Positions 34,004-45,774 of a stretch of DNA of 64,000 nt are shown here, in pieces. The notes under the pieces were generated by a model, which was given only the letters and a program-made list of their open reading frames with translations, was not told the DNA's origin and did not search any database. The first letter of the stretch is position 1; every line of letters starts with the position of its first letter. This stretch comes from Paraflavitalea soli (GTDB lineage Bacteria > Bacteroidota > Bacteroidia > Chitinophagales > Chitinophagaceae): contig NZ_CP032157.1 of the NCBI RefSeq assembly GCF_003555545.1, positions 252,546 through 316,545 on the forward strand, in the 5' to 3' direction. A program made the translations under genes and the position numbers.

Positions 34004-37000
34004 ATGACATTTAGCTCTGATCGCGGGGGCTATAGCTTATTGTCCCTGCCCAACAGCCAACGCCATGGCAAAAGGCTAACTAAACTGCTATTGGTTATGA
34101 AACTGACTATGATCTTATTGACAGTAACCTGTCTTCATGCAGCTGCCAGGACCCAGGGGCAGGTTACTTATTCCGGCAGGGAAGTGCCGTTGGTAAAAGT
34201 GTTTGCGGCGATTGAGGCGCAGACGGATTATAGGTTTGCTTATAATCCAGGGGTGCTTTCGGGAGTTGCGCCGGTGACGGTGGAGTTCCGAAATTTGACG
34301 CTGGAGGAAGCTGTGAAGCAGGCTTTGAAAAACCAGCCACTACAGTTTAAGATTATTAATAAAACCGTTTTTATTTCTCAAAAAAGTGATAATAAAAGTT
34401 TTCCTGTACAAAACGAATTATTTAAACGGATTGATGTAAAGGGGAAAGTTTTGAATAACCAGAATGGTCCTATTGCAGGAGCGACGATAAGCGTAAAAGG
34501 GGAATCCATGGCTACTTCAAGTGATGAGAATGGGGCCTTTATTTTAACTGACGTGGACGAAAATGCCACATTAGTGATCACTAACGTAAACTATGAAACA
34601 CGCGAGTATAAACTGAATGGGAAGACGGATGTTTTAATTGAATTGGCAATCCGGACTTCTACTTTGTCTGAAGTAAATGTGACTATTAATTCAGGATATC
34701 AAAAAGTAAGCAAAGCGAGATATGTCGGCTCTGTTACAACAGTTGATAGTGCTTTGTTTAATAGAAAAGTGGGTACTGATATCATTTCAAGATTGGATGG
34801 GGTTGCCAACGGGGTTTTATTCGATAAGCGAAGCGATAGTCGAATCCAGATCCGGGGTATAAGCACACTTACTGGCACTAATATGAATCCCCTCATTATA
34901 TTGGATAATTTCCCTTTTAATGGAACATTATCGAATATTAATCCTAATGATGTGGAAGAGATTCATATACTGAAGGATGCTGCTGCTGCGTCCATTTGGG
35001 GTGCCAAGGCCGGTAACGGAGTGATTGTTATCACTTCGAAGAAGGGGAAATACAATCAGTCTACAAGGATTGATTTTAACTCGAATGTTACCATTCAACA
35101 AAAGCCCGATCTGCATTATTTTGACCAGATAAGTACCTCTGATTTTATTGATCTGGAGAAGTTCTTATTTGATAAAGGTTTGTACAATAATGATCTGAAT
35201 AATACCTCCAGCCGCCCTGTAATTTCACCGGTGGTGGAAATCCTTAATAAGGAGAAAAAGGGATTAATATCGTCAGCAGAAGCTGCCAGTCAAATCAACA
35301 AATTGCGGAATATCGATATAAGGAATGAGATCGAATCAAAAATTTACAGGCCTGCAGTAAATGTTCAAAATTACCTGAGCATTGCAGGGGGATCATCCAT
35401 GGCTAATTACCAAGTATCGCTGGGTTATGACAAAAATACGCCTAATGTTAATGGACCTGGAAACTATCAGCGGTATACCCTAAATAGTTCAACAAGTGTT
35501 CGTCCAGCCAGCTTTGTCGAGTTAAATTTAGGCCTTAATGTTTCTCAGGCTGAGACGCGGACGAGTTCTTTCAGTCCCCAGCTTAATCCTGGAAGTGGCA
35601 AGTCGCAGATTTATCCCTACGCTCAACTTGAGGAGAATGGGCAGCATCTGGCCTTGCCACGTGACAGGCGCCTGGCCTACGTTGATACTGTGGGGAAATT
35701 ATTAGACTGGCACTATAGGCCAATGGATGAAATTAATTTGGAGAATAACAGGCTCCGAACGCAAAATGTCATATTAAATTTCGGTACGACATTCAAATTT
35801 ACCAAATGGTTAACAGGTGATATTAAATATCAATTTGCCCAGCAAAATATCACTGGCCGGAACCTGCAAAGTGCGCAATCGTATTTTACCCGAAATTTGA
35901 TTAATTCATATACACAAAAAAATACCTACAAGCAAATTATCCCTGTAGGAGACATTCTTGACAAGTCGTATAACGAACTTACAGGCCATTTTTTCAGAGG
36001 TCAATTATCGTTCATAAAATCCTTTAATAGCAGACACCACTTCAATGCGCTGGTTGCAGCCGAAATCAGCGACAATAAAAATAATTCTTCCTCAGTGCGG
36101 TTTTATGGGTATGATGATGAAGTTTCGACTTATGCTACAGCTCTTGATTATGCTACAGCCTATCCTTTGTTTGCTGGTGGCTCTGCCCGCATACCAAATC
36201 CGAATTATACAGGGGATGGCTTGAGCAGAAACCGTACAGCTTCTTTTTTGGGGAATCTCTCTTATACTTACCTAGATAGATATACCTTGTATGCCAGTGC
36301 CAGAAGAGATGGTTCTAATCTATTTGGTGTAAGAACTAATAACAAATGGAAGCCACTTTGGTCTGTTGGCGCCAGTTGGGATATTATCAAAGAATCCTTT
36401 TTTCAATCGGAAATCATTTCTAATTTGAAATTAAGGGCGTCTTATGGTTATACTGGTAATAGTAATAATAATATACCAGCGATCACAACCTTCGGTTATC
36501 TTGATATTAATCCGTATACGAACCTCCCTTATGCTGTAGTAAACCAACCTCCGAATCCTGATCTAAGATGGGAAGAGGTTGGTATTGTAAACCTGGGATT
36601 GGATTTTTCCGTCCTTAAAAACCGCATTTCAGGAACGTTTGAATGGTTTACTAAAAAATCAAAGGATGTAATTGCTCCTTTCCCGCTTGACCCTACTGTC
36701 GGAAATAATGTTTTTAATTTTATCAATAAAAATGCTGCTAATTTAAGAACGCGAGGTTTTGATCTTAGCCTAATGTCAAGGAACCTGGAAGGTAAGATTT
36801 CCTGGAATACAGTATTAAATTTCAGTTATGCAAAGACGATAGTTACAAAGTATTATCAGAATCAACAACTTGGTATCCCTGCTCAGCCACCTTCTATTGG
36901 TATAAATCCAATAGAAGGACAAGTTGCCTGGGGACTATATTCCTACAAGTGGGGTGGGTTGGATCCTGCGACTGGAAATCCGCAAGGTTATTTAAACAAG

Positions 37001-37558
37001 GGGCTTAGTACAGATTATGTTAAGATATTGAATGATTCATTGAAGAACCATGTATTTCATGGAAGTGCGGTTCCTTTGTATTTTGGTAACCTGATGAATA
37101 ATCTTTCATTTAAAGGTTTTGCTTTGTCCTTTAATATCACCTACAGATTTGATTACTATTATATGAAAAATTCCTTAAGTTATTCATCCTTGTATACATG
37201 GGCTCTTCCCGGCAGCAATGAGTTTGCTGAACGATGGAAACAGCCGGGGGATGAATTGAAGACGAATGTGCCATCTATTTCCTACCCAGCTAATGCAAAC
37301 AGGGATAAGTTTTATGCCCAGTCAGAAATAAATGTGCGTCGAGGTGATAATATCAGACTGAGCGATGTGCGGGTTTCCTATTCATGGAATACAGTTAATA
37401 AGTGGCTGCCTATCAAAGGGGTTCAGGTATATTGTTATTTGAATAATCTGAACTGGATGATATGGAAAGCCAGCGATCTTAAATATGATCCTGATTTCAA
37501 CATGAATGCCATACCTCCGGCAAAGAGTGGCGCTGTAGGTTGTAGTTTCAATTTTTGA
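34004..37558 (+). CDS. SusC/RagA-type TonB-linked outer-membrane protein with STN domain
   Basis: 1184 residues. After an N-terminal hydrophobic export segment (about 27-47), an STN domain (about 50-120, VPLVKVFAAIEAQTDYRFAYNP) precedes the carboxypeptidase-like domain (DVKGKVLNNQNGPIAGATI), plug (about 225-345, IQIRGISTLTGTNMNPLIIL and LKDAAAASIWGAKAGNGVI) and barrel. Together with the downstream SusD lipoprotein it forms a pedal-bin type importer. The STN domain should contact the FecR protein. The next gene overlaps by four bases. The AT content is higher than in the flanking 20 kb. Confidence 0.95.
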   Translation: MTFSSDRGGYSLLSLPNSQRHGKRLTKLLLVMKLTMILLTVTCLHAAARTQGQVTYSGREVPLVKVFAAIEAQTDYRFAYNPGVLSGVAPVTVEFRNLTLEEAVKQALKNQPLQFKIINKTVFISQKSDNKSFPVQNELFKRIDVKGKVLNNQNGPIAGATISVKGESMATSSDENGAFILTDVDENATLVITNVNYETREYKLNGKTDVLIELAIRTSTLSEVNVTINSGYQKVSKARYVGSVTTVDSALFNRKVGTDIISRLDGVANGVLFDKRSDSRIQIRGISTLTGTNMNPLIILDNFPFNGTLSNINPNDVEEIHILKDAAAASIWGAKAGNGVIVITSKKGKYNQSTRIDFNSNVTIQQKPDLHYFDQISTSDFIDLEKFLFDKGLYNNDLNNTSSRPVISPVVEILNKEKKGLISSAEAASQINKLRNIDIRNEIESKIYRPAVNVQNYLSIAGGSSMANYQVSLGYDKNTPNVNGPGNYQRYTLNSSTSVRPASFVELNLGLNVSQAETRTSSFSPQLNPGSGKSQIYPYAQLEENGQHLALPRDRRLAYVDTVGKLLDWHYRPMDEINLENNRLRTQNVILNFGTTFKFTKWLTGDIKYQFAQQNITGRNLQSAQSYFTRNLINSYTQKNTYKQIIPVGDILDKSYNELTGHFFRGQLSFIKSFNSRHHFNALVAAEISDNKNNSSSVRFYGYDDEVSTYATALDYATAYPLFAGGSARIPNPNYTGDGLSRNRTASFLGNLSYTYLDRYTLYASARRDGSNLFGVRTNNKWKPLWSVGASWDIIKESFFQSEIISNLKLRASYGYTGNSNNNIPAITTFGYLDINPYTNLPYAVVNQPPNPDLRWEEVGIVNLGLDFSVLKNRISGTFEWFTKKSKDVIAPFPLDPTVGNNVFNFINKNAANLRTRGFDLSLMSRNLEGKISWNTVLNFSYAKTIVTKYYQNQQLGIPAQPPSIGINPIEGQVAWGLYSYKWGGLDPATGNPQGYLNKGLSTDYVKILNDSLKNHVFHGSAVPLYFGNLMNNLSFKGFALSFNITYRFDYYYMKNSLSYSSLYTWALPGSNEFAERWKQPGDELKTNVPSISYPANANRDKFYAQSEINVRRGDNIRLSDVRVSYSWNTVNKWLPIKGVQVYCYLNNLNWMIWKASDLKYDPDFNMNAIPPAKSGAVGCSFNF

Positions 37559-38940: not shown

Positions 38941-39005
38941 TCTTATGTCCCTAAAGGGCAGAAGATGTGATGTAGTAATTGTTGAGTCACAAATTTGTTT
39001 TTCAT

Positions 39006-41486
39006 ATGACCGTTATAAGAAATGCATTTTATTGCCTGGTTTTGCTGGTGATTGTTTCCTGCCAGGAGAGCCGTTCTGTTGCAAATGGGCAACGACCAGT
39101 TACTGCGATGGGAAAGACTGTTATAAAGGACAGTTTAAAAACTTTTTTAAAGGCAAGTGCCGTTGCTGATGAAGGGGTTTTTACCATCTACCGTGACAGC
39201 GCCCATTATTATTTCGAAATTAAGGATTCCTTACTGAACAGAGATTTCCTGGTGGTGAATAGGGTAAGCCAGGCTCCTGCTATGGGGCCGGAACCTTCAT
39301 CCAGAAGGTGGCTGTATGCAGGGGACATAATCGGCGAGCAAGTGATACGTTTTGAAAAAGGCCCGAACAACAAATTGTTTTTAAAGAAAGTATATTTTGA
39401 GGAAATGTCCCGGGATTCTTCCGAGAACGGACTTTTCGAGGCTGTTTCGAAATCCAGTTTCCTGCCCATAGTTTATTCATTTGATATTAAGGATACTGGG
39501 CGTCATGGCGGGATGCTGATAGATGTTACAGATGTTCTTTCTGCCGATAATGATATTTTCTTTTTCTCGTCGGGGATGAAGAAGTTAATTCGTTTAGGAG
39601 GATTGGAAAGGGATAGATCTTATATCAGTAAGGTCAGTTCTTTCCCGTTAAATGTAGAAATTAAAGCTGTTAAGACCTATGCAGGAGTAGACGGTGGAAC
39701 CACCAGCTACGAACTGAATAGTTCGATCGTTATCCTGCCTGAGAGGCCGATGATCCCGAGGTATTCTGATGCACGTATAGGTTATTTTGTGGCCAACTTT
39801 TATGATTATGACCTGAAGAAGCAAAGTGTTAATAAATCTAACATCATCACCAGGTGGCGCCTGGAAGTGAAGGATGGTGATTGGGACAAATACAAGGCTG
39901 GTATTCTGGTAGAACCAAAGAAGCCCATTGTTTTTTACATTGACCCTACAACCCCTAAAAAATGGGTGCCATACCTCATTCAAGGTGTTAATGATTGGCA
40001 AAGAGCCTTTGAAAAGGCTGGGTTTAAAAATGCTATTTATGCTTTGGAAGCTCCTGTAAATGATGAGGAATGGAGTATTGAGGATGCCAGGCATAATGCC
40101 ATTGTATATAAGCCATCTACGACTATGAATGCCAGTGGCCCGCATGTGCATGATCCCCGTTCAGGAGAAATTATTGAAAGCCATATCAACTGGTATCATA
40201 ATGTACTAAAATTACTCAGGAATTGGTATTTTATCCAGGCTTCGGCTATAGATCCTCAGGCAAGGTTTATGGAATTTTCCGATACATTAATGGGTAATCT
40301 TATCCGGTTTGTTTCGTCTCATGAGGTTGGGCATACGCTGGGACTTATGCATAACTTCGGCGCCTCTTCCACTGTGCCGGTAGATAGCTTGAGAAATAAA
40401 AAATGGGTGGAAAAGAATGGGCATACGCCATCGATCATGGATTATGCACGTTTCAATTATGTAGCTCAACCTGAAGATTCAATCGGAGAAGCAGGTATAT
40501 TTCCCCGTATAGGAAAATATGACGAGTGGGCTATTGAGTGGGGGTACAGGCAAATGCCGGCTCTAACTGAAAAGCAGGAAATTGATTCCTTAAACAAATG
40601 GATTGTAACAAAGGTAGACAGTGATCCCAAGCTGTACTTTGGGTATGAAACTGATGAGTTTAATCCCAAAGCTCAGTCTGAAGACCTGGGTGATAATGCC
40701 ATGCAGGCCAACCGATATGGCATAGAAAACCTGAAGCGCATTGCTAAAAACCTGGTTTCCTGGACCACTAAAGGGAATGAAAATTACGATGATTTGGCAG
40801 AGTTATATCCTGAACTTATTGCTCAATACAAACGGTATTTATTTCATGTGGCTACCTATATAGGCGGGCAAGTCCATTATCAAAGAAGCCCGAGTCAACC
40901 CGGGCCGCGAAAGGTGTTTGTACCCATGCAAAAACAACAAGAGGCTTTGGCTTTCCTGAAAGACCAAATCTTTTCTACTCCACAGTGGCTTGTTGATGTA
41001 GATAAGGGGGTATTCCCATTAATTGGAGGCGCCGGATTTGGTAATGTCAGTAAAATTCAAGCAGATGTATTGGAGAAAATTATGTCGCATGCCATCTTTT
41101 GTAATTTATTATGGGCGCAATCTAACACTAGAGAGAGAGGATATTCCCTGGATAATTACCTGGCCGATTTGAGAGGCATTATCTGGAGTGAGTTAAAAAG
41201 TAATAAACCCATTGATATGTACCGACGCAATTTGCAAAAATTGTATGTTGAAAGGTTATCGATTTTAATCAACTTTAAAACATCGGCTAATAGATTTGAA
41301 GCTAATGGCCCATTTAGTCAAACAAGCATAAGTACTGATATTCTTTCCATTCTAAAAGGTGAGGTACGGGCATTGCGTAGTGAGATTGGTATTTCCAGGA
41401 ACAAGGCCACTGACAAGCTAAGTAAGCTACACCTGATAGATTTGTGGGAGAGATTAGGAACCATAATTGACGACGGGTCGAAATAA
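39006..41486 (+). CDS. exported zinc-dependent metalloprotease (DUF5117/DUF4953 type)
   Basis: 826 residues from ATG at 39006, giving a lipoprotein signal (MTVIRNAFYCLVLLVIVSC). The metzincin zinc motif HEVGHTLGLMHN (starting near residue 439) has the three His and catalytic Glu. The region before it (MIPRYSDARIGYFVANFYDY) and after it (TPSIMDYARFNY) is typical of the Bacteroidota family of large zinc metalloproteases. It should cut proteins at the cell surface and feed peptides to the SusC/SusD pair immediately upstream (65 bp). Confidence 0.9.
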   Translation: MTVIRNAFYCLVLLVIVSCQESRSVANGQRPVTAMGKTVIKDSLKTFLKASAVADEGVFTIYRDSAHYYFEIKDSLLNRDFLVVNRVSQAPAMGPEPSSRRWLYAGDIIGEQVIRFEKGPNNKLFLKKVYFEEMSRDSSENGLFEAVSKSSFLPIVYSFDIKDTGRHGGMLIDVTDVLSADNDIFFFSSGMKKLIRLGGLERDRSYISKVSSFPLNVEIKAVKTYAGVDGGTTSYELNSSIVILPERPMIPRYSDARIGYFVANFYDYDLKKQSVNKSNIITRWRLEVKDGDWDKYKAGILVEPKKPIVFYIDPTTPKKWVPYLIQGVNDWQRAFEKAGFKNAIYALEAPVNDEEWSIEDARHNAIVYKPSTTMNASGPHVHDPRSGEIIESHINWYHNVLKLLRNWYFIQASAIDPQARFMEFSDTLMGNLIRFVSSHEVGHTLGLMHNFGASSTVPVDSLRNKKWVEKNGHTPSIMDYARFNYVAQPEDSIGEAGIFPRIGKYDEWAIEWGYRQMPALTEKQEIDSLNKWIVTKVDSDPKLYFGYETDEFNPKAQSEDLGDNAMQANRYGIENLKRIAKNLVSWTTKGNENYDDLAELYPELIAQYKRYLFHVATYIGGQVHYQRSPSQPGPRKVFVPMQKQQEALAFLKDQIFSTPQWLVDVDKGVFPLIGGAGFGNVSKIQADVLEKIMSHAIFCNLLWAQSNTRERGYSLDNYLADLRGIIWSELKSNKPIDMYRRNLQKLYVERLSILINFKTSANRFEANGPFSQTSISTDILSILKGEVRALRSEIGISRNKATDKLSKLHLIDLWERLGTIIDDGSK

Positions 41487-41554: not shown

Positions 41555-41914
41555 TTATGGTTTCAACTGTACTCTTGCTACAACTGGCATAGAAACAGCT
41601 TGATCGCTTTTAGGGCTAGTCAGTGCAATGTTCAAAGTTGCTCTGATGGTAGTAGAGGTATTATCTACCATTGGTTTGAACTGATCTGCATGACCGGCAG
41701 GATAAACTTCAGTATCATCTACTTCAATCCAGGCTAACTGGTTGTTTGCACCAGGAATTACTGATTGAGAACCTGCAGAAGTATAATTACCAGGCAGGAA
41801 TTCGTTGCTTCCTGAATAAGTAAAATACTGAGTTGCAAAGCGAGGACTGAAAGCAGAACCAAGAACTACAGTCAGAACCAGTACTGATAATGATAAGAAT
41901 TTGAACTTTTTCAT
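41555..41914 (-). CDS. small exported protein, paralog A of a local family
   Basis: 119 residues with a signal peptide (MKKFKFLSLSVLVLTVVLGS). The mature part has no Cys. It shares long blocks with the 122-residue protein at 43045-43413: FSPRFxTxYFxYSGxNEFLP, LAWIEVDxTEVYPAGH, FKPMVD, and PVxARVQxKP at the end. I do not recognise a named domain; the size and start resemble DUF6520-type small exported proteins, but this is uncertain. The leader ATTAAATCATCTTT just before ATG (41915-41928) is like those of the other genes of the block. Confidence 0.7.
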   Translation of the reverse strand: MKKFKFLSLSVLVLTVVLGSAFSPRFATQYFTYSGSNEFLPGNYTSAGSQSVIPGANNQLAWIEVDDTEVYPAGHADQFKPMVDNTSTTIRATLNIALTSPKSDQAVSMPVVARVQLKP

Positions 41915-42041
41915 AAAGATGATTTAATAATTAATATGAATAGTGCTTACTCTTTTGCAGGTTTTCAGCTGACCCTGTTGCTATTGTGATGGCCATCACC
42001 ACAGCAAGTTGTGCACAAAAAGTTATAATGGTAAAGTTTTA

Positions 42042-42482
42042 TCAGCCAGGAATAGGGGTGTAACTATTAAGAGATTGTTTTTGTTTAAGGCGGAGTGTGA
42101 TTAACGCTCCAATTAAAGACAATAGAAAGATCGTGATATTTATACCCAGGTGATTATTAAATGACAGTTGATGAAGAAACCCTCCCCGGAAATGAGGCAT
42201 ATCCTGCGTAATGGTGAGCATCAAAACGGTATATAACGTTGATAAAAACATAAGTGCCCAGAAACCGATCATCCGAAATCGTTTGAACATTAAGAGTAAC
42301 GCGATAATTATTTCAGCAACAGAAAGAATCCAGGTTAAACTACTCGCATATGGAGCAAATTGAGGAGTTAAACCTATTTCGAACCTGGTAGCTGCCGGGT
42401 GAGAGATCTTGGTAACAGCGATATGAAACAAAAAAAGTATGAGAGTCCATGCAATACAATCTGTTATAATCATTTTTTTCAT
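42042..42482 (-). CDS. MauE/DoxX-like four-helix membrane protein
   Basis: 146 residues with four membrane helices (about 7-25, 47-65, 71-91 and 112-130). The pattern FAPYASSLTWILSVAEIIIALLLMF... resembles MauE/DoxX redox-associated proteins; MauE proteins support disulfide or cofactor maturation in the periplasm. No CxxC pair is visible, so the redox role is only inferred. It lies between two paralogous exported-protein genes, all on the minus strand. The leader ATTAAACCTTCTTT (42483-42496) directly precedes ATG. Confidence 0.7.
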   Translation of the reverse strand: MKKMIITDCIAWTLILFLFHIAVTKISHPAATRFEIGLTPQFAPYASSLTWILSVAEIIIALLLMFKRFRMIGFWALMFLSTLYTVLMLTITQDMPHFRGGFLHQLSFNNHLGINITIFLLSLIGALITLRLKQKQSLNSYTPIPG

Positions 42483-42720
42483 AAAGAAGGTTTAATAGAG
42501 CTATTTTATGCAATAATGGTATACATAAATTGTTCTGCCATTCTGGTTGTTTAAACGTGATGCTGCTGGATCCTTGGTAAATATTTCTTTATATGCTCTT
42601 ATGTTTGGGCGTTATTCGAATAGTTGTTTTCATGCTTGCAGGGTAGTTAGAGGGGTTAGAGAACAAGCCATGTTGGGGAGTTGCCGTTTCGAATACATAA
42701 GCAAGTTAATTCAAGAAACC

Positions 42721-42754
42721 ATTCCATTTGGCCGAATCTATATTCCATTCAGCC
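42721..42754 (+). promoter_or_regulatory. operator-like direct repeat pair A
   Basis: ATTCCATTTGGCC (42721-42733) and ATTCCATTCAGCC (42742-42754) differ at two positions and start 21 bp apart. The same pair recurs at 42937-42968 and 43498-43531. AraC-family regulators commonly bind such paired sites, and one is encoded in the block. Confidence 0.6.
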
Positions 42755-42820
42755 GTTTTTGTAAGTGTGTTTTCGATGATATATAAGTTTAGGGTAATCA
42801 AAACTGATAGCTAGAAATTG

Positions 42821-42855
42821 AAGGTGAATGGTTTAAAATGTGAAACATTCACCTT
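42821..42855 (-). terminator. terminator-like hairpin after the gene remnant
   Basis: AAGGTGAATG (42821-42830) pairs perfectly with CATTCACCTT (42846-42855). It lies just downstream of the decayed paralog on the minus strand, but the following T run is short. Confidence 0.45.
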
Positions 42856-42868
42856 TAATTCTAAGTAC

Positions 42869-42895
42869 TAAGGGTTTAGTTCTACTCTTGCTCGA
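42869..42895 (-). pseudogene. 3' remnant of a third exported-protein paralog
   Basis: On the minus strand this encodes RARVELNP followed by a stop. The intact paralogs end VARVQLKP and ARVQMKPWYY. Upstream of it the coding body is missing and the operator pair at 42937-42968 follows within 45 bp, as if an internal deletion removed the gene between its regulatory site and its end. Confidence 0.5.
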
Positions 42896-42936
42896 TTAAT
42901 TGTAATTAATACGATAAGGTAATTAACTTATAATAA

Positions 42937-42968
42937 TTCAATTGGTCAAAACTATATTCCATTTAGCC
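42937..42968 (+). promoter_or_regulatory. operator-like direct repeat pair B
   Basis: TATATTCCATTTAGCC (42953-42968) is a near-exact copy of the second half of pair A. A degenerate partner, ATTCAATTGGTC, starts at 42937. It lies upstream of the gene remnant on the minus strand. Confidence 0.5.
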
Positions 42969-43044
42969 TTTTGGGATTGATTGTTTGTTTAAGCGGTCTA
43001 GATTGGCATTATTTCGATACTATTGTTTGCAGACGGTTATTAGA

Positions 43045-43413
43045 TTAATAATACCAGGGTTTCATTTGTACTCTTGCCCATACTGGATATGTAACCGTGA
43101 TGTCGGTTTTGGGATTACTCAACGCCACAATCAATGCTGTCCTGATCATAGCAGAAGGATCATCTACCATGGGTTTAAACTCATTAACGTGGCCAGCAGG
43201 ATAAACTTCTGTAGGGTCTACTTCGATCCATGCTAAGTCAGTGTTTGGTCCACCAATTACAGTTTGACGGGGAACTGAAGTGTAGTTGCCTGGCAGGAAT
43301 TCGTTAGTTCCTGAGTAAGCAAAGTACTCAGTTGTAAAACGAGGACTAAAAGCGGAGCTAAGAATTACGGTCAGTAACAATGTTGATAATGATAAGCATT
43401 TGAGCTTTTTCAT
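43045..43413 (-). CDS. small exported protein, paralog B of a local family
   Basis: 122 residues with a signal peptide (MKKLKCLSLSTLLLTVILSS). It aligns with the 119-residue protein at 41555-41914 over its full length (FSPRFTTEYFAYSGTNEFLP, LAWIEVDPTEVYPAGH, FKPMVDD) and differs mainly at the C-terminus (KPWYY). The mature part has no Cys. The operator-like pair C lies 85-118 bp upstream, and the leader ATTAAACCTTCGTT (43414-43427) touches ATG. Function unknown. Confidence 0.7.
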   Translation of the reverse strand: MKKLKCLSLSTLLLTVILSSAFSPRFTTEYFAYSGTNEFLPGNYTSVPRQTVIGGPNTDLAWIEVDPTEVYPAGHVNEFKPMVDDPSAMIRTALIVALSNPKTDITVTYPVWARVQMKPWYY

Positions 43414-43497
43414 AACGAAGGTTTAATGATTAATATGGTATGATGCCTCGAGTGGTGCCTATTCTTTCGCACATCAATAAGATACTAAAAATGGAAC

Positions 43498-43531
43498 ATT
43501 CAATTTATCTGAAAGTATATTCCATTCGGCC
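43498..43531 (+). promoter_or_regulatory. operator-like direct repeat pair C
   Basis: ATTCAATTTATCT (43498-43510) and ATTCCATTCGGCC (43519-43531) start exactly 21 bp apart. The second half is the best-conserved element of the three pairs. It lies between the AraC-type gene and paralog B, in position to control paralog B. Confidence 0.6.
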
Positions 43532-43535
43532 TTTT

Positions 43536-43931
43536 TTATGCAGACTGTTTATTCGCTTCTTCGATCCTTCCATTTTTCAACTGATCCCTGCGCCATGCGG
43601 CCGGTGGTTGGTGCATGTTTTTCTTAAAGAACTTTATAAAGTTGGTCTCTGCATGGTACCCTACAAAGCCCAGGGATAAGGCAATACTCCGAATATTCAC
43701 ATCGGCCATTAAGAGTATTTTGGCTTTCTCCAGGCGTTTTTGTAATAGGAAGGCATAGGGTCCTATTCCAAATGCAGTTTTGAAATCTTCCTTTAATTTG
43801 TTTTTGTTGATCAGGAGTTTTTCCGCGAGTTCGGGAATCCTGTAATGGTACTTGAGATTATTTTCAATAATACGGGCGGCTTCCAGCACCTTTTCCAGGT
43901 CCTGGTGAGACAAGGTTGATACTTCTTTCAT
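43536..43931 (-). CDS. AraC-family transcriptional regulator (short)
   Basis: 131 residues from ATG at 43931; an in-frame TTG at 43982 would add 17. The ATG is preferred because the leader ATTAAACCTGCTTT before it (43934-43947) is shared with the other genes of the block. The protein is little more than an AraC HTH pair: IPELAEKLLINKNKLKEDFKTAFG and IRSIALSLGFVGYHAETNFIKFFKKNMHQPPAAWRR. It lacks a ligand-binding domain. It is the first gene of a minus-strand series with the exported proteins and the MauE-like gene, and the paired repeats in the block are its likely sites. Confidence 0.82.
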   Translation of the reverse strand: MKEVSTLSHQDLEKVLEAARIIENNLKYHYRIPELAEKLLINKNKLKEDFKTAFGIGPYAFLLQKRLEKAKILLMADVNIRSIALSLGFVGYHAETNFIKFFKKNMHQPPAAWRRDQLKNGRIEEANKQSA

Positions 43932-44248
43932 AGAAAGCAGGTTTAATCGCCTGGCTTCAGGAACCAGGTCGTTACTTAACAATAAATAGTAATTATGTAT
44001 ACTGCCTTACCAGTAAACAAATGACCCGCCCGGAGGCAGGAGGAAAGAATAATAAGAGGTGTTCGAATGTTGTGAGAGCGTAGAAATCGCCTTTTCTACA
44101 CCTCCTAAATTACAATTAATGCGAAAAGGAAACTCATAAGAAATCCTTATTTTTTTTAACCTAAGTAGTAACCCCTAAATAGTTTGCCTTTGATCACCCC
44201 CGAATTCCTTGCGTTGCATGCTGCTACTGTGGGGATTAGAATATCCAG

Positions 44249-45110
44249 TTACCGCGAAAAGGAATAGGAGATGCCGAACACAATCCCATAATCGACCGTG
44301 GTGGCATTTTCGCCAGGCGGCTGTGAATCGTAGTTGTCGTACAACGTGAGGTTGAGACTGAAATCGGTGATGAGTTTCCAGGTGAGTTTAATCTGCTCAT
44401 CGTGCCGGATGCGCCCTTTCTGGGTTAGACTAAAATAAAGATTCTGCGTACTTTGCAGATCCATTTCGGGTTTGCGGAAGCTGAAGAAATTGAAGGTGTT
44501 GACGATGGGTATTTATATCTGGGTGGGTGTTGAAGTGCTCTCTGTATTTACTTCCTGGTTGAGCACCATACCGGTGCCGGTCCTGAGTCTTACATGATTG
44601 GTAGAAACCAGATTGTAGGATACACCGAGTCCCTCCTGGAAGCGGCGGGCCAGGCCCAGCTCGAGGTTGCGCTGGTAATTGAAGAAGGCAAGGACCTGCT
44701 ATAAAGTGTTTATGCAATAGTACCCGGTGATGCCACCATTTTCGTTGTCCCTGGTCCAGCCGGTATCGGTTGGGTAACGATAATGGAGTAATTGCCATCG
44801 ATCTCAAATTTGCGGGTGATGCATTTGAGAGTGAGGTCGGCATTGAGACGTCCTATCTTACTGGACCAGCTAAAGGAATAACCGGCGGATGCAGCGTCTT
44901 CCCACAAAGGTTTTTTGAGGTTCTTGAAAGGGCGTAGGTTGGCTATATCTTCGAAATGCCTGATCTTATAAGTTATGTCAATAGTATAGCGGTTTGTATA
45001 TTTAACCTCCATGGAGTGCCTGCTGTACAGAAGCATCGGCCTGTCTGGAAGGCCAGGATAACCACGTCCAGGAGTAAAAGAGTGACGACCACTACCATGA
45101 AGATCATTCT
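44249..45110 (-). pseudogene. broken outer-membrane beta-barrel gene (DUF481-like)
   Basis: On the minus strand, recognisable barrel-like coding runs in two frames. The upstream part reads TIDITYKIRHFEDIANL and SAGYSFSWSSKIGRLNADL. A frame change near 44750 is needed to reach NYQRNLELGLARRFQ and SYNLVSTNHVRLRTGTGMVL. That second frame carries a TAG at 44699-44701 and a TAA at 44513-44515, then ends LNLTLYDNYDSQPPGENA ... SYSFSR. The last segment is typical of DUF481-like barrels. With a frameshift and two stops the gene is probably inactive. The 5' end is unclear. Confidence 0.7.
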
Positions 45111-45579: not shown

Positions 45580-45774
45580 ATGAAAAAGGTATTCGTATTG
45601 GCTACTGCCGTGCTGTTACTGAGCAGTTCTGTAGCCTTTGCCAACAATGGCGAAAAAAATAAAAATAAAGGAAGCAAGGCAAAAACAGAGAAAACCTGCA
45701 CAAAGCAATGCCCCAGGCCTTGTTCTAAACCAATGCCCCCTTGCTGCGATAAAAGCAAGTGTGACAAAGGATAA
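45580..45774 (+). CDS. small Cys-rich exported peptide
   Basis: 64 residues from ATG at 45580 (MKKVFVLATAVLLLSSSVAFA, signal peptide). The mature peptide begins with Asn/Lys repeats (NNGEKNKNKGSKAKT) and then has six Cys in its last 26 residues (TCTKQCPRPCSKP, PPCCDKSKCDKG). Its charge and Cys density suggest metal chelation or a disulfide-rich peptide. Function unknown. It is followed by a strong terminator. Confidence 0.68.
   Translation: MKKVFVLATAVLLLSSSVAFANNGEKNKNKGSKAKTEKTCTKQCPRPCSKPMPPCCDKSKCDKG

Follow-up and report, generated by a model that had tools for sequence, protein, structure and literature searches.

In the 64,000-nucleotide stretch of the Paraflavitalea soli genome analysed here (hereafter the window; positions 252546-316545 of a single contig of 8.44 Mb, NZ_CP032157.1), the gene for a MauE-family membrane protein lies between the genes for two small exported paralogs, P1 and P2. 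Such pairs of MauE and an exported protein form a partnership that is widespread but unstudied, and across it the cysteine (Cys) state of MauE matches that of the partner. MauE most likely acts as a thiol oxidoreductase in the membrane on a dedicated client, and in the window the redox chemistry has most likely gone while the pair has been kept. On balance, we favour the interpretation that the window locus is the Cys-free variant of a unit of the Chitinophagaceae comprising MauE and one to five exported proteins of the DUF6520 type, in which MauE still acts on P1 and P2 non-covalently. The core features of the locus are as follows.

41555..41914, minus strand: P1, 119 residues, a Cys-free, DUF6520-related exported protein (open reading frame, Cys count and profile comparison)
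41944..41978, minus strand: DUF805b leader RNA (RF02914) between MauE and P1 (35.9 bits; gathering score 35.6)
42042..42482, minus strand: MauE-family membrane protein, 146 residues, four long helices, without the C-x-C (CxC) motif (PF07291 match and predicted structure)
42180..42194, minus strand: HFRGG, at the site of C-x-C in 153 of 163 MauE relatives (alignment)
43045..43413, minus strand: P2, a 122-residue paralog of P1 with a Cys-free mature part (open reading frame, comparison with P1 and structure model)
43455..43472, minus strand: possible degenerate DUF805b remnant upstream of P2 (sequence by eye, unscored)

Matched cysteine states of MauE and its partners

The window MauE matches PF07291 with 40.9 bits (gathering score 27), and long helices are predicted at residues 2-27, 43-65, 67-91 and 108-139, with a predicted local distance difference test (pLDDT) score of 91. 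This agrees with the initial annotation, made from the sequence alone, of a MauE-like four-helix protein. That annotation had further called it a redox-type membrane protein, which is true of the MauE family but not of the window copy: the CxC thiol motif, as read from the alignment, is absent, and HFRGG is found instead. The remaining nine of the ten distinct MauE proteins without CxC carry HDYGG (locus L070), NDFGG (L072), AMFGG (L073 and L074), HDFGG (L075, L082 and L083), HEFGG (L077) or DSSGG (L236); a truncated MauE of 65 residues in L112 was left out of the counts. The window protein thus differs from other members of PF07291 in having HFR for CxC and in its partner, which is not methylamine dehydrogenase, while it shares the family score, the four long helices and the GG that follows the motif position. 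PMC7794033 describes the speculation that MauE aids disulfide formation in methylamine dehydrogenase.

Over residues 1-120 of P2, the two paralogs P1 and P2 share 67% identity. No Cys occurs in either after the signal region, which was read by eye as KK, a hydrophobic run and AFSP; the single Cys of P2 is at position 6. The reading frames and this identity bear out the earlier description of two paralogs of 119 and 122 residues that flank MauE and lack Cys in their mature parts.

Counted by cluster, Cys-free partners accompany 10 of 10 MauE without CxC and 0 of the 121 CxC MauE with an identified partner (Fisher p = 3.5e-15, a value that ignores kinship), and all 121 CxC clusters have solely partners with at least two Cys. 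Counted by protein, at least two Cys are present in 136 of 136 partners of CxC MauE, while the 16 partners of non-CxC MauE comprise 13 without Cys, two with at least two Cys and one with a single Cys. When 16 partners of the Cys type were aligned, C61 and C68 were the sole invariant residues past the signal region. This pair, invariant in the 16 members of our broader Cys-type DUF6520 set (A9) and not part of the Pfam definition, does not occur in mature P1 or P2; in the window protein, an Ala ahead of a conserved Trp takes the place of the second Cys.

The profile that was used to find partners included Cys-free sequences, and the sampling was not random. P2 was added to the counts by hand, as it lies upstream of MauE, and one of the three partners in L236 was accepted on its length and position, not on a profile match. 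Also left out was a weakly matching protein (E = 0.006) of 149 residues with four Cys, encoded upstream of the L077 MauE. Under looser partner rules, 124 CxC and 10 non-CxC clusters match, with L273 as an exception; its apparent Cys-free partner was rejected, being a piece of an AraC gene. The looser list, among loci from L194 on, also held Cys-free frames near CxC MauE in L225, L249, L262 and L272 (677-2056 bases away), all spurious by eye.

Two further loci were observed in this connection. The window genome contains a second non-CxC locus (L070 and L284, 5294466-5295800), with the HDYGG MauE, exported genes with four and zero Cys, a convergent SusC/SusD pair and a strong DUF805b site. In L090, a TlpA-like lipoprotein with CxxC is encoded upstream of MauE, and a DUF6520-type gene lies nearby; we take this lipoprotein to be reminiscent of MauD.

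Relationship and distribution of the exported proteins

P1 and P2 match no Pfam family at E <= 10, so that the gathering score of DUF6520 (PF20130, a family of unknown function) of 25.4 bits is not reached, and their one NCBIfam match lies in the signal region, below the cut-off. Searched alone against the genome contigs, P2 found no relative. When 294 genomes were searched with a single sequence, those other than the window's own yielded only weak matches. Three of these (L005, L006 and L009) were informative, being small exported proteins beside MauE; L004, L007 and L008 were not, and L003 was another weak match. The relative in L006/L085 is a DUF6520 protein above the cut-off. Profile searches extended the set: a five-sequence profile (A1) matched in 32 of 394 genomes of the family, and the DUF6520 profile in 73 of 195 genomes, with 32 of the 73 over the cut-off.

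MauE genes were found at 23 of 30 loci from the A1 search (three of them seed loci) and at 23 of 29 new loci from the DUF6520 search; the two sets, of loci of about 3 kb each, overlap in part. Because the 8.44 Mb of the window genome contain only five MauE matches over the cut-off, this proximity of MauE to the exported genes is far above chance, and it upholds the earlier proposal of one functional unit. Neither of the two outcomes named beforehand as speaking against that proposal was seen: no homologs with unrelated neighbours were seen, and no characterised family was matched. The typical arrangement in relatives is MauE followed by one to five exported proteins, often with an AraC-type gene upstream and a convergent SusC/SusD pair. 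Of the 163 MauE genes, 131 have an identified partner downstream, some of them at loci where no SusD was found. Exported genes stand in tandem behind one MauE in L129 (five), L155 (four) and L071 (three), and the MauE and exported pair was seen outside the family in G432, G667 and G749 (same class).

Most partners are DUF6520-like, and 15 of the 16 A9 members match DUF6520 at E <= 0.01. When mature parts were compared with hhalign, the Cys-free set of eight proteins (A8) matched the Cys-bearing partners of L071, L078, L085, L093 and L094 with 96.7% probability (20 column-shuffled controls, at most 0.4%), and A9 weakly, with 22.5% and E 9e-4 (controls at most 0.1%); at full length the match to A9 was 98.4%, with the signal region counted in. 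Because the mature match is strong to one set and weak to A9, we term P1 and P2 related to DUF6520, as a divergent Cys-free branch recognised by profile comparison, and not members of it. The label of an undescribed family given in the initial annotation was therefore too strong. Like DUF6520, P1 and P2 are small exported proteins with a similar signal region and mature profile and with MauE as a neighbour; unlike it, they match no Pfam DUF6520 at E <= 10 and have no Cys pair. A literature search returned no paper on DUF6520.

The model of P2 has a helix at residues 8-20 followed by a small domain built from strands and a single helix, with core pLDDT above 90. By sequence, the exported protein had one match in the PDB, in the signal region (E 0.25). 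Loops resembling those of EF-hand or dockerin domains (D-x-N/D-x-D/N-G-x-I) were noticed by eye in the exported proteins of L071, L078 and L083, which match the Pfam EF-hand and dockerin models only weakly.

Selection and the number of losses

The ratio of nonsynonymous to synonymous substitution rates (dN/dS) was 0.22 between P1 and P2. For the Cys-free pair L073/L074 it was 0.11 for the exported protein and 0.08 for MauE, and between the two L072 exported genes it was 0.09, with synonymous change near saturation. A CxC comparison (L079/L080) gave 0.41 and 0.12. The low ratios suggest that the Cys-free form is still functional.

MauE trees, from all of which the motif columns were excluded, required two changes of state with 86 rows and three with 48 rows, and trees with one change were found in 0 of 200 bootstrap trees for both. 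A quick tree of 163 rows required three changes for CxC and four for the partner state (counting the L273 artefact); for this tree, a clade test revealed a better topology than the free search. L077 falls in a non-CxC clade of eight rows (support 100/96), and its grouping with the window was not rejected (p 0.455). It is possible that the Cys of MauE and partner were jointly lost in one to three events.

The DUF805b leader RNA

RF02914 narrowly passes its gathering score between MauE and P1. Six sites above the cut-off occur in the window genome and none in 14 control genomes. Small exported proteins follow four of the six (P1, a Cys-bearing protein of L287 and those at two further MauE loci); of the others, one precedes a lipoprotein-like gene and one has no visible gene near it. 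Within the 220 nucleotides upstream, a strict DUF805b pattern is present at 49 of 150 exported genes, as against 0 of 162 MauE genes and 2 of 525 long open reading frames.

With no stem letters required by the pattern, 84 of 103 instances can pair stem 2 (against a shuffled mean of 56.6 and a maximum of 65), most often as GCC/GGC (56), GCT/AGC (14) and ACC/GGT (8), and 67 of 103 can pair stem 1 (shuffled mean 22.0, maximum 34); the instances are related by descent, and the shuffles ignore kinship. Because the two covarying stems interleave, the element looks like a pseudoknot, judged from sequence covariation. The window site and the sites ahead of partners match the Rfam model, whereas the Rfam consensus line pairs one stem and a second, interleaved stem covaries here. 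No paper on the DUF805 RNA motif or DUF805b was returned by a literature search.

Gene neighbourhood

Four further genes adjoin the unit.

34004..37558, plus strand: SusC-type receptor gene, convergent with the MauE unit; a 50% identical homolog is convergent in the syntenic locus L077
37555..38940, plus strand: SusD-type lipoprotein gene
38979..41486, plus strand: metzincin (DUF5117/DUF4953) gene, with a homolog within 5 kb of MauE only in the window and L077 among 111 MauE genes
43536..43931, minus strand: short AraC-type helix-turn-helix (HTH) protein (HTH_18 match), with ATG at 43929-43931 and the frame open to 43982

The AraC-type protein matches HTH_18 with 56.6 bits (cut-off 33.6, E = 3.2e-15), and no effector domain was found in it by the Pfam scan. 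Neighbours were counted around 111 MauE genes at loci of at least 4.9 kb, many of which have flanks of about 2.5 kb, so that the counts are lower bounds. By profile, at least 45 of the 111 have a short AraC-HTH gene no more than 2 kb away, upstream and on the same strand in 42, which also supports the proposal of one functional unit. SusD is found within 5 kb of at least 58, the nearest copy always downstream and convergent, and SusC within 5 kb of at least 39.

The closest counterpart in gene order is L077, where SusC (50%), SusD (52%) and the metzincin (54%) are identical to this extent to those of the window and face an exported protein (39% to P1) and MauE (29% to the window MauE). Only the profile search recovered its short AraC-type gene upstream. 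The window AraC gene shares 59% identity with that of L071.

Proposed mechanism and alternatives

In the standard form of the unit, the CxC motif of MauE would lie in the loop between transmembrane helices 3 and 4 (TM3-TM4), placed on the periplasmic side by the positive-inside rule, applied by eye, and would swap disulfides with the Cys pair of the partner. A disulfide would thereby be made or maintained that staples a loop of the partner ahead of its central strand. Expression of the unit would be turned on by the AraC-type protein, and the amount of exported protein would be tuned independently of MauE by the DUF805b RNA that lies between the two genes. In the window, MauE may act on P1 and P2 through non-covalent binding, by holding, folding or delivering them; because the pairing persists under purifying selection without Cys, it is most likely still acting on them. 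The exported protein probably serves the convergently encoded SusC/SusD system, which is the weakest step of the proposal. A broader and tentative idea is that this oxidoreductase-client pair has jointly and repeatedly dropped its redox chemistry and stayed functional; MauE-family proteins would then have a further, non-redox role as membrane chaperones or docking sites specific to their partners, with clients tuned by a pseudoknot leader RNA.

Several observations weigh against this account. No partner was found for 32 of the 153 CxC MauE. A further partner that keeps Cys occurs at three non-CxC loci, L070 (four Cys), L072 (one) and L082 (two), and the non-CxC loci were largely found by profiles made from them. 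The Cys may have been lost in a single event: supported branches force only one change, approximately unbiased (AU) tests allow one clade (p 0.284, 0.443 and 0.481), and an independent-pairs test finds one pair on supported branches and two or three on all branches, too few for significance. No solved structure was matched convincingly: the P2 model matched no PDB fold at E <= 0.001 and the MauE sequence had no match in the PDB; the best fold for the MauE model, a gamma-carboxylase at E ~0.7, was too weak and was not used. The window AraC protein and P2 had no tblastn match in L077 at E <= 0.01.

It seems unlikely that the exported proteins give rise to secreted peptides similar to bacteriocins or to ribosomally synthesized and post-translationally modified peptides (RiPPs), with MauE forming disulfides in the Cys versions, the metzincin or other proteins processing them and the Cys-free forms being a variant class. 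The tandem, diverse exported genes of L129, L155 and L071 would suit such a role, and a passage of PMC7794033 describes MauE together with Cys-rich candidate RiPP precursors in Streptomyces. The Streptomyces candidates in that passage share with our loci a MauE beside a small Cys-bearing gene product, but belong to another phylum, whereas the partner here is a predicted folded exported protein and the window pair has no Cys. The prediction for P2 is a folded domain whose core is modelled confidently, rather than an unstructured core peptide, no modification enzyme was found among the six window proteins scanned, and the exported genes are under purifying selection.

We regard it as quite unlikely that nothing but a shared SusC/SusD neighbourhood brings MauE and the exported protein together, with uncoupled drift of the Cys in one lineage. 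A single origin of the loss and the presence of SusD near 58 of 111 MauE genes would agree with this; the two Cys, however, are the sole invariants among 16 divergent partners and yet are absent in 13 of 16 where CxC is missing, and partners lie downstream of most MauE genes, some of these at loci where no SusD was found. Decay of a redox pair into a remnant would explain the loss of CxC and the RNA element ahead of P2, which looks degenerate by eye, but is very unlikely given intact frames and a dN/dS of 0.08-0.22 in Cys-free genes. The same form occurs in other genomes, and L070, the other non-CxC locus of the window genome, has its own SusC/SusD.

What is new in the preferred interpretation, a Cys-free variant of a MauE-client unit, is that matched presence or absence of Cys in neighbouring genes points to a specific, testable client of MauE, a family whose clients elsewhere are little known. 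DUF6520, the leader RNA and the SusC/SusD neighbourhood are tied into one unit, and the Cys-free form parts the partnership from its chemistry and so offers a natural test of the role of the cysteines.

A shared leader and minor features of the window

A short leader precedes the genes of the window locus.

41912..41928, minus strand: leader ATTAAATCATCTTT with the P1 ATG (pattern search)
42480..42496, minus strand: leader ATTAAACCTTCTTT with the MauE ATG (pattern search)
43411..43427, minus strand: leader ATTAAACCTTCGTT with the P2 ATG (pattern search)
43931..43947, minus strand: leader-like stretch ahead of the AraC gene, with the ATG two bases further off (pattern search)

The initial annotation had placed this leader directly before the ATG of all four genes. 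It is exact for P1, MauE and P2; the AraC copy has two mismatches to the pattern with ATG and lies two bases further from the ATG. Across the 8.44 Mb genome, the pattern ATTAAAYCWKCKTTATG occurs exactly at three sites, one at each of these three genes, and once elsewhere with one mismatch; the reversed pattern, as a control, has two sites at up to one mismatch versus four for the true one. At up to three mismatches, the window holds 8 matches versus 2.81 expected, and 0 of 100 shuffles were as high. The exact shared leader is a real, local feature of the window locus. It was rejected as a mark of the family. Because P1 and P2 are duplicates, their common leader could be inherited, which does not explain the MauE copy.

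Beside the AraC gene, overlapping short frames at 44249-45036 (minus strand) appear by eye to be a broken outer-membrane protein gene. A small Cys-rich exported protein is encoded at 45580-45774 (plus strand), with a weak DUF6520 match of 16.6 bits, under the cut-off.

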